From: an alpha proteobacterium MED-G09
Lineage (GTDB): Bacteria > Pseudomonadota > Alphaproteobacteria > MED-G09
DNA: 64,000 nucleotides
Reading direction: 5' to 3'
NCBI GenBank assembly: GCA_905182015.1
Contig: CAJIZT010000006.1
Location: 186,001-250,000, forward strand
The translations under genes were made by a program, and so were the position numbers. Position 1 is the stretch's first letter. Every line of letters starts with the position of its first letter. The notes below the pieces were generated by a model. The model saw only the letters and a list, made by a program, of their open reading frames with translations, had not been told where the DNA came from and searched no databases. This document shows, in pieces, positions 1,619-5,190 of the stretch.

Positions 1619-3157
1619 ATGATAAAAAATTTTTTTATAAGTACAGCTATATCTTATACAAATGGTCCTCCGCATATGGGTCATGCGTATGAGATTATTG
1701 CTGCGGATGTAATAGCTCGTTTTAATAGACTTCAAAGTAAAAACGTTTTTTTCCTTACCGGGACTGATGAGCATGGACTAAAGGTCCAGCAAAAAGCAAA
1801 TAAATTAGAGATTTCATCACAAGAGCTTGCCAATCAGATGTCAAAAAAATTTATAGATATGGGCGATGGCTTAAATTGCTCTAATGATGATTTTATTCGA
1901 ACCTCTGAAGAGAGGCATAAAAAAGCAGTTAAGGAGATTTGGCTAAGAATGAAAGATAATGGCGATATATACCTCGATGATTATTCTGGCTGGTACTCGA
2001 TCATTGATGAGGCATTTTATCAGGAATCAGAGCTAATAAAAAACAATTTAGGAGAGCTTCTGTCACCTAATAAGACACCAGTCGAGTGGATTGAGGAGAA
2101 AAGCTATTTTTTCCGACTATCAGCCTATGAAGAAAAATTATTAGATCTATACGAAAGTGATAATGAATTTATTCAACCTCCAAGCAGAATGAATGAGGTA
2201 AGAAATTTTGTTAAGGGTGGATTGAAAGATATTTCTATCTCAAGAAAAGGCTTAGAGTGGGGTGTTGATGTTCCTGATGATAAAAGCCATTCCATATATG
2301 TTTGGGTTGATGCTCTTACAAATTATATTTCCGCCCTTCAATGGCCTGATGGAGGTAAATTGTATGATAATTTTTGGCCGGGCGACCTTCACTTGATTGG
2401 CAAGGATATTATTCGTTTTCACGCTGTTTACTGGCCTGCGTTTCTTTTATCGGCAGGACTACCAATACCTAAAAAGATTTTTGCCCATGGTTTCATTCTC
2501 AATAAGGGAGAGAAGATGTCAAAAAGTCTTGGTAACATTGAGGACCCTATGTCTTTAATTGAAAGCTTTGGTGTTGATCAATTAAGATACTTTCTGATGA
2601 GGGAAATACCCTTTGGGTCCGATGGTAATTACAGCGATAAATTACTTATTAATAGGGTTAATGCCGACTTGTCCAATGACCTGGGTAACCTGTCTCAGCG
2701 ATGTTTATCAATGGTAAAAAAGAACTGTAATCAGTTGGTTCCTAGTAAGGGTGAATTAATGGATGTTGATTTGGAATTATTAAACTCCATTGAGTTAAAA
2801 AAAAATAATATAATAAAGGTAATGGATAACTTTCAAATTAGCTCTTACCTTTCTGAGGTTTTTGATGCGATTTCCGATACCAATAAATATTTCTCAAATC
2901 AGAAGCCTTGGGAATTAAAATCTGTTGATGAAGAGCGAATGAACACGGTTCTATGGGTCACATGTGAAATGTTAAGAAGGTTTGGTATACTTTTACAACC
3001 AGTTATCCCATCGGGGAGTTCAATGCTTTTGGGCCTTTTATCCATTAGTGAAAAGGAGCGCACTATAGACTTTTTAAATGACGATTATGCCTTAATACCT
3101 GGTGATCCAATACAGAATCCCGAAGTGATTTTTCCAAAAATTGAATTAAAAGAATAA
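1619..3157 (+). CDS. metG: Methionyl-tRNA synthetase
   Basis: HMGHAYE and KMSKSLGN class I aaRS signatures. Confidence 0.97.
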   Translation: MIKNFFISTAISYTNGPPHMGHAYEIIAADVIARFNRLQSKNVFFLTGTDEHGLKVQQKANKLEISSQELANQMSKKFIDMGDGLNCSNDDFIRTSEERHKKAVKEIWLRMKDNGDIYLDDYSGWYSIIDEAFYQESELIKNNLGELLSPNKTPVEWIEEKSYFFRLSAYEEKLLDLYESDNEFIQPPSRMNEVRNFVKGGLKDISISRKGLEWGVDVPDDKSHSIYVWVDALTNYISALQWPDGGKLYDNFWPGDLHLIGKDIIRFHAVYWPAFLLSAGLPIPKKIFAHGFILNKGEKMSKSLGNIEDPMSLIESFGVDQLRYFLMREIPFGSDGNYSDKLLINRVNADLSNDLGNLSQRCLSMVKKNCNQLVPSKGELMDVDLELLNSIELKKNNIIKVMDNFQISSYLSEVFDAISDTNKYFSNQKPWELKSVDEERMNTVLWVTCEMLRRFGILLQPVIPSGSSMLLGLLSISEKERTIDFLNDDYALIPGDPIQNPEVIFPKIELKE

Positions 3158-3227
3158 AATTAATTCGTGACATCAAATTTATAAAGTTGTATTAAAGCAA
3201 CTACTTTTATATTTACAGGGATTCTTT

Positions 3228-3446
3228 ATGGATAAATTTTTAGTTATTGATCTGGACATGGATATCAGAAACGCAAGGTCACATTTTGAAAAAAAATATA
3301 TACTTGCTCAAATAAAGAAATTTAACGGTAATATTTCCAAGACAGCAAATTTTATTGGCATGGATAGAACTGCGCTTCATAGAAAAATGAAGGACTTAAA
3401 AATACATCCAAATGATAGATACAGAAATATTATTGGTTATCAGTAA
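3228..3446 (+). CDS. Stand-alone Fis-type HTH protein resembling the C-terminal DNA-binding domain of NtrX
   Basis: ARSHFEKKYILAQIKKFNGNISKTANFIGMDRTALHRKMKDL matches the NtrX C-terminal pattern; AGGGA SD-like sequence upstream of ATG; adjacent to trkA. Confidence 0.8.
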   Translation: MDKFLVIDLDMDIRNARSHFEKKYILAQIKKFNGNISKTANFIGMDRTALHRKMKDLKIHPNDRYRNIIGYQ

Positions 3447-3457
3447 AGGGAAGAATC

Positions 3458-4834
3458 ATGCAGATAGTAGTTTGTGGCGCAGGAAAGAGTGGATCATCTA
3501 TTGCTGAAAAATTATCTCAGCTTGGTAATGAGGTTACAATAATTGATTCATCATCTAATTTAGTTAAGAATCTTACAAGTAAATTAGATATCAGAGGTGT
3601 TGTTGGTCATGGTGCTCATCCAGATATTCTTGAGAGGGCTGGAGCACGAGATGCTGATATGTTGATTGCTATCACATCATCCGATGAAGTTAATATGCTT
3701 GCCTGTCAGATCGCTCATTCAATCTTCGAGGTACCAAAGCGAATTGCAAGAATTAGAGATAAATCTTATTTAAATCCATCTCACCAAGACTTATTCACAA
3801 GTGAAAAATTACCCGTTAGTGTAATAATTTCTCCTGAAAAAGAGGTTGCAAAAAACGTTTTACGTAGGTTAGAAATACCGGGGGCCATTGAGAATATTCC
3901 TTTTATTGAAGACAAACTTAAATTCTTAGCAGTAAAAATTGAAGATAATTGTCCTATAGTTGAAACGGAAATAGGAGAATTAACTAATCTTTTCCCAGAC
4001 TTAAAAACAGTAATTGTTGGTTTGTTACGAGATGGTGAAATTTTAATTCCTAAAACAAATGATAAGCTGATTATCAATGATATTGCCTATATAATTTGCC
4101 CTAAAGAGCTTTCAAGGAGAGTTGTTTCTATTTTTGGTCATCCAGAAAAGGAGGCCAGAAAGGTTGTTTTGATCGGAGGGGGATCAGTTGGCAGCGAGGT
4201 GGCAACCATGATTGACTATTCTGCAGCAAAAATTAACCTTACCGTCATAGAGAATAACGCCACCAACGCTTCATTTTTAGCAGATAAATTGAAAAATGTT
4301 AGGGTTTTGAAGGGTTCTGGTGTGGACAGGGATATACTTCATGAGGCTGATATAGAAAATACTGAAACACTGGTATCCCTAACTGATAGCGATGAAACTA
4401 ATTTTCTTTCTGCTGCTTTTTCTTCTAGCGAGGGCTGTAAGAGATCTTTAGCACTTTTGAACAACTCGGACTTTCAGTCATTAATTAAGTCATTGAAGAT
4501 TGGAGAATTTATCGACCCTAAGGCTATTACAATTTCCTCTATCTTAAGACACGTAAGAAAGGGTCATATTAAGAGAATATATTCTCTAACAGAAGGTAAT
4601 GCTGAGGTGATTGAGGGCGAGGTTTCGGTATCTTCAGAGCTCATAGGTCCTTCTATTGAAGAAATGCAATTACCCTCTGGACTTAGAATAGGCGGAATAA
4701 TGAGAAAAGATAAGTTCGTTATGCCAACTGGATCAACTTGTATAAAGGAAGGTGACGAGATAGTAATTTTTTCAAGATCAGAATGTATTCACATGGTAGA
4801 AAAATTTTTTAGGGTTAGCCCTGATTTTTATTAA
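3458..4834 (+). CDS. trkA: Trk system potassium transporter regulatory protein TrkA
   Basis: Two RCK/NAD-binding repeats (GAGKSGSSIAEKLSQLGNEVTIID; IGGGSVGSEVATMI), 458 aa. Confidence 0.95.
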   Translation: MQIVVCGAGKSGSSIAEKLSQLGNEVTIIDSSSNLVKNLTSKLDIRGVVGHGAHPDILERAGARDADMLIAITSSDEVNMLACQIAHSIFEVPKRIARIRDKSYLNPSHQDLFTSEKLPVSVIISPEKEVAKNVLRRLEIPGAIENIPFIEDKLKFLAVKIEDNCPIVETEIGELTNLFPDLKTVIVGLLRDGEILIPKTNDKLIINDIAYIICPKELSRRVVSIFGHPEKEARKVVLIGGGSVGSEVATMIDYSAAKINLTVIENNATNASFLADKLKNVRVLKGSGVDRDILHEADIENTETLVSLTDSDETNFLSAAFSSSEGCKRSLALLNNSDFQSLIKSLKIGEFIDPKAITISSILRHVRKGHIKRIYSLTEGNAEVIEGEVSVSSELIGPSIEEMQLPSGLRIGGIMRKDKFVMPTGSTCIKEGDEIVIFSRSECIHMVEKFFRVSPDFY

Positions 4835-4947: not shown

Positions 4948-5190
4948 ATGCTAAAAAAAACTGATGAAAACCCTTTAAACGATATCGACCTTGAGAACCG
5001 TTTTGTTTCCTTTGCAATTGAAAACTCTAAACCTCTAACTATATTTCTTGTTAATGGAATTAAGTTAGAAGGAAATATTATTGATATGGGTAAAAATTGT
5101 TATCTTTTAAAAAGGGATGATAATATGCAATTAGTTTATAAACACTCTATATCAACAATTCTGCCTCTAGATTCATCAAATTTTCTTTAA
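4948..5190 (+). CDS. hfq: RNA chaperone Hfq, divergent
   Basis: Sm-like LTIFLVNGIKLEGNI and LVYKHSISTILP; start re-set to ATG 4948 preceded by AGGAAG (track start 4894); position after trkA. Confidence 0.88.
   Translation: MLKKTDENPLNDIDLENRFVSFAIENSKPLTIFLVNGIKLEGNIIDMGKNCYLLKRDDNMQLVYKHSISTILPLDSSNFL

Follow-up and report, generated by a model that had tools for sequence, protein, structure and literature searches.

We report that the open reading frame at positions 3228 to 3446 of the window (the whole 64,000-nucleotide stretch of DNA analysed here) encodes a stand-alone DNA-binding domain of NtrX, termed mini-NtrX, and that its gene is preceded by a conserved palindrome; the palindrome and its distribution are what is new here. 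We consider it likely that mini-NtrX is a functional, sensor-independent transcription factor, produced by an internal deletion, that binds a predicted operator, regulates its own gene and, in most relatives, has a regulon of receptor genes and gltB. The binding, dimerisation, repression, regulon and deletion route are what we infer from the observations described below.

A stand-alone NtrX domain between metG and trkA

The gene and its neighbours are as follows.

1619 to 3157, plus strand: metG, upstream neighbour of mini-ntrX (ORF, named by eye)
3217 to 3221, plus strand: AGGGA, Shine-Dalgarno-like, ahead of mini-ntrX (from the sequence)
3228 to 3446, plus strand: mini-ntrX, 72-residue stand-alone NtrX DNA-binding domain (ORF with ATG start; profile and structure matches)
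3228 to 3269, plus strand: codons 1 to 14 of mini-ntrX (MDKFLVIDLDMDIR), probable remnant of the start of a receiver domain (strand 1)
3282 to 3395, plus strand: Fis-type HTH (HTH_8), residues 19 to 56 of mini-NtrX (Pfam, AlphaFold model)
3458 to 4834, plus strand: trkA, downstream neighbour of mini-ntrX (Pfam TrkA_N and TrkA_C)
4948 to 5190, plus strand: hfq, downstream of trkA (ORF by eye, with no profile score; start by analogy)

The original prediction had described a 72-residue ORF with a Shine-Dalgarno-like AGGGA, metG ending 70 bp upstream and trkA-hfq lying downstream, and these coordinates were confirmed. The gap between mini-ntrX and trkA is 11 bp, and the two genes are likely co-transcribed. 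No receiver or AAA+ sequence adjoins mini-ntrX. An intact copy, likewise standing alone, was identified in 15 of the 18 genomes analysed from the order, in three genera, and the ORF is therefore no chance product.

The proposal that the ORF corresponds to the C-terminal Fis-type HTH of NtrX was borne out by profile and structure comparisons. Pfam assigns HTH_8 to residues 19-56 with 45.3 bits, and the best NCBIfam model is that of NtrX (68.9 bits), matched at positions 404-451 of 452, its extreme C-terminus, whereas the NtrC and Fis models score 15.8 and 16.4 bits, respectively. The closest solved structure is that of Brucella abortus NtrX (5m7n, E 4e-14). An AlphaFold model built on a 15-row alignment (mean pLDDT 78) predicts a long helix spanning residues 2-31 and two HTH helices, with residues 62-72 at low confidence. 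In Foldseek, the model aligns with NtrX and with the NtrC4 domain in its DNA-bound form, and less strongly with Fis; the protein is thus predicted to have a stand-alone Fis fold, with a TM of about 0.6 to Fis and Fis E-values above 0.1. Pfam detected no receiver domain in mini-NtrX, which holds at most a possible 14-residue remnant of one, and the phospho-acceptor aspartate is absent.

The palindrome ahead of mini-ntrX and its distribution

Two elements were recognized in the interval between metG and mini-ntrX.

3167 to 3195, plus strand: predicted promoter, GTGACA (3167-3172), 17 bp, TATTAA (3190-3195), proposed from conservation
3186 to 3201, no strand assigned: palindrome GTTGTATTAAAGCAAC, predicted autoregulatory operator, conserved in 15 genomes of three genera

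The palindrome has the form GTTG-N8-CAAC and is positioned 26 bp before the mini-ntrX ATG in the window; each of the 15 genomes that carry mini-ntrX has it in the upstream region. Alignment of the 15 upstream regions identified two blocks, TGACA and GTTGTA.T.AAGCAAC, the palindrome being invariant at 14 of its 16 positions. TGACA is conserved, and the spacing between GTGACA and the TATTAA-like hexamer is a constant 17 bp in the 15 genomes; a sigma-70 consensus scan did not include the proposed promoter among its matches. The predicted −10 sequence (TATTAA) resides inside the palindrome, and binding to the palindrome should therefore exclude RNA polymerase. According to the mechanism that we propose, mini-NtrX would fold as a dimer of Fis/NtrC-type DNA-binding domains that binds GTTGYA-N4-WRCAAC, and, when bound at its own promoter, would exclude RNA polymerase and hold its level constant by negative autoregulation. 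Control by mini-NtrX would be set by its concentration, not by phosphorylation.

Previous studies reported that NtrX binds the promoter of its own operon, recognizes half-sites of the form CAA/TTG, and reduces expression when its site overlaps a transcription start (PMC9223101, PMC7240162). The published NtrX motifs, CAAN2-5TTG and GCAN9TGC, are spaced otherwise than the palindrome, and efficient binding by S. meliloti NtrX depends on phosphorylation (PMC9223101), which is impossible for mini-NtrX.

The loose pattern GTTGN8CAAC was no more frequent in whole genomes than in a reversed control, and we therefore used the tighter GTTGYA-N4-WRCAAC. This gave 73 strand matches in the 18 genomes vs 20 in the reversed control, where symmetric sites are counted twice and 15 of the 73 are the mini-ntrX sites from which the pattern was derived. 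The matches represent 52 distinct places in genomes related by descent, 46 of them intergenic and 6 inside one homologous coding gene; the surroundings were inspected at all 52, and Pfam was run on ten representatives. Every intergenic site precedes mini-ntrX (15), gltB (8) or a TonB-dependent receptor gene (23, including one whose receptor lies beyond the contig end and was assigned by synteny; three sites of this receptor type are less certain, as the receptor start is at least 260 bp away). The strict site is found before gltB in eight of the nine genomes that possess the gene, and the ninth (G010) has a site with one mismatch. In most relatives, an operator at these positions would place outer-membrane uptake and glutamate synthesis under mini-NtrX. 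In Paracoccus, NtrY mutation alters TonB-dependent transporters (PMC9409073).

The window's own genome differs: its only strict intergenic site is that of mini-ntrX itself, and a receptor orthologue in it has lost the site. No strong site was detected upstream of 17 TonB receptor genes of this genome, gltB was not found in it, and a search allowing two mismatches gave matches that were nearly all coding and below the control. A wider regulon is not supported for this genome.

Several other features of these loci were seen. The gltB gene itself is patchy, occurring in 9 of 18 PS1-order genomes (L236-L244) and missing from three of the six high-quality ones, the window's included. In several genera, a gene identified by eye as cytochrome P450-like diverges from a TonB-dependent receptor gene across an intergenic region with the palindrome (L151, L153, L158, L268). 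A P-II family protein that is extended by about 57 residues at its N-terminus is encoded near a palindrome, with a tRNA gene between (L146, L154).

Once defined in the PS1 order, the pattern was tested on the promoters of ntrY in genomes that encode full-length NtrX. There, TTGYA-N4-TRCAA occurs nine times, against 0.5 expected; most of these matches come from Sphingomonadales loci that are related to one another. Eight of the nine control patterns had no match, and the remaining one had four. In four of five such Sphingomonadales genomes, 5 of 12 genome-wide motif places precede ntrY; counted over whole genomes, the motif is about as frequent as the control. At 29 diverse alphaproteobacterial loci, TTGN8CAA was not specifically enriched before ntrY, and the motif is not general to ntrY promoters across alphaproteobacteria. 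In Pontixanthobacter luteolus (L343, 1501-1538), the interval between ntrC and ntrY contains two tandem palindromes, CTTGCACAATTGCAAC and GTTGTAAGAATGCAAC, at a distance of 22 bp.

One could envision that the palindrome belongs to some other transcription factor, which controls the receptors, gltB and mini-ntrX, and that mini-NtrX binds elsewhere. Most of the predicted targets are indeed receptor genes, a class often under other regulators. However, the mini-ntrX site is kept in every genome that bears the gene, even where the other strict intergenic sites are gone, as in the window's genome, and the motif also precedes ntrY in Sphingomonadales, in which autoregulation by NtrX is to be expected. 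We think that this alternative is unlikely.

Still less probable, in our judgement, is a nucleoid or architectural role of the Fis kind, in which mini-NtrX would bind DNA broadly and with low specificity. Fis is likewise a small stand-alone protein of the same fold, and an origin of Fis from a domain of NtrC has been proposed (Morett and Bork 1998, cited in PMC11407668). Nonetheless, the sequence of mini-NtrX is NtrX-like and not Fis-like, its promoter carries a conserved and specific palindrome, and the two other genera begin the gene with TTG, at a conserved position (L012-L018), which does not suggest an abundant protein. Of the two roles first suggested for the domain, that of a constitutive, Fis-like regulator is preferred to that of a nucleoid protein, because the conserved palindrome favours a sequence-specific, autoregulated regulator.

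Selection on mini-ntrX and its origin

All six genomes of the order with a completeness of at least 90% and a contamination of no more than 5% contain the gene. It was not found in three genomes that are 61-83% complete, which reflects either an assembly gap or loss. The protein is 92-94% identical to the window copy within the genus and 65-68% between genera. The dN/dS values of mini-ntrX in two genera are 0.026 and 0.047 (Nei-Gojobori, pairwise means), indicative of purifying selection, and those of the trkA start are 0.031 and 0.023. That mini-ntrX is a decaying, functionless ntrX fragment, as a truncated gene in a reduced genome and its absence from the three incomplete assemblies might suggest, is scarcely credible, given a frame intact across the three genera at this level of identity, dN/dS near that of trkA, and a conserved upstream region. 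Simple decay had been expected to appear as a full ntrX elsewhere together with loss of the ORF in relatives; the relatives keep the ORF, and, as judged from sequence, mini-ntrX is not a product of decay.

The source genome (1.35 Mb, 97.9% complete) belongs to the marine PS1 clade, and its nearest named relatives are MAGs and SAGs of the PS1 clade, the OCS116 cluster and 'Rhodobiaceae'. The idea that the kinase, receiver and ATPase were removed and the DNA-binding domain kept agrees with a genome-wide search, which found neither NtrY nor full-length NtrX. The three HTH_8 matches of the genome are NtrC, a RegA-like regulator and mini-NtrX. NtrC passes the equivalog cut-off and contains the sole full Sigma54_activat domain, a second, weak match being located inside the window's 764-residue Clp-type ORF. 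None of the six sensor kinases fits NtrY by size, and exclusion by profile covers five of them, via NCBIfam or by a reading as NtrB/RegB-like from context. NtrB and NtrC are kept, about 12 kb upstream of mini-ntrX. The same spacing is seen in three genomes of the second genus (G010, G014, G016), and the ancestral ntrBC-ntrYX-trkA-hfq cluster was therefore probably split before the genera diverged. The congener G005 has a contig (C34, L165) with ntrY (590 residues), a full ntrX and a second trkA; because this contig carries its own ntrY and trkA and has a GC content of 29%, its NtrX was discounted as probable contamination.

The predicted reduction to a DNA-binding end was supported, with the refinement that the N-terminus looks like a retained NtrX start, which speaks for an internal deletion rather than a simple 5′ truncation. 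MAFFT placed residues 1-8 on the start of the NtrX receiver and the remainder on the linker and HTH; a linker origin of residues 1-8 was rejected for its poor fit. When compared with a profile of receiver starts, the first 14 residues score 11.6 bits; the match is short, and the idea was formed after seeing the sequence. This score was reached by one of 254 other N-termini, the best of which is itself a receiver domain, and the observed identity was reached in 65 of 20,000 shuffles. The N-terminus of the g3 copy is a poorer fit (mean of 2.2 identities vs 5.2). These comparisons point to a probable origin of mini-ntrX by in-frame internal deletion of ntrX, which would have joined the first 14 or so codons (receiver start) to the last 58 or so (dimer helices and Fis-type HTH); ntrY would have been lost as well.

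A second short NtrX ORF, of about 95 residues, was observed in an unrelated alphaproteobacterial family (G048:C4, L294, 3350-3634, plus strand), in a MAG that is 63% complete. It scores 68.5 bits to NtrX, starts with the receiver-like MTKTLFMVSCDNADRLEIF and continues with the HTH; by its sequence, it is apparently an independent reduction.

Taken as a whole, the broadest reading, to which we give slightly less than even weight, is that an independent Fis-like regulator arose from NtrX, kept its operator and exerts constitutive control over TonB-dependent receptors and glutamate synthase in a streamlined marine order, with a parallel reduction in the G048 family.

Mini-NtrX and known regulators

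If our interpretation is true, genome streamlining can remove the sensing part of a two-component system while the DNA-binding end and its operator are retained under strong selection. Mini-NtrX would then be a modern counterpart to the origin that has been proposed for Fis, from a domain of NtrC, and its predicted regulon of nutrient receptors and glutamate synthase concerns a marine lineage for which assembled genomes are the main source of knowledge. A full-text literature search, with subscription papers mostly outside its reach, yielded no account of an NtrX domain that stands alone.

NinH of phage lambda (PMC7166090) is likewise a small, stand-alone, Fis-like HTH protein, but it is phage-encoded; no relatives of mini-NtrX were found in viral contigs. 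The DNA-binding domain of Aquifex aeolicus NtrC4 (PDB 3e7l, 4fth) is a domain of this kind that, in isolation, crystallises both alone and bound to DNA, although it is an artificial piece of a full sigma-54 activator and is 34% identical to mini-NtrX. NtrX itself is similar at its DNA-binding C-terminus (62% identity over 45 columns with B. abortus 5m7n), and the NtrX of NtrYX systems shares the gene order ahead of trkA-hfq and a site at its own promoter. Mini-NtrX, with 72 residues compared with about 460, lacks the receiver, the AAA+ domain and the NtrY partner, and we do not class it as an NtrX response regulator because the receiver, AAA+ domain and kinase were tested for and are absent. 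Fis, in turn, is a stand-alone HTH_8-type protein of comparable size and fold. We do not class mini-NtrX as Fis because its sequence is far nearer that of NtrX; it also belongs to another lineage and is predicted to recognize a specific palindrome. In its mode of action, mini-NtrX may resemble Fis or a constitutive form of NtrX.
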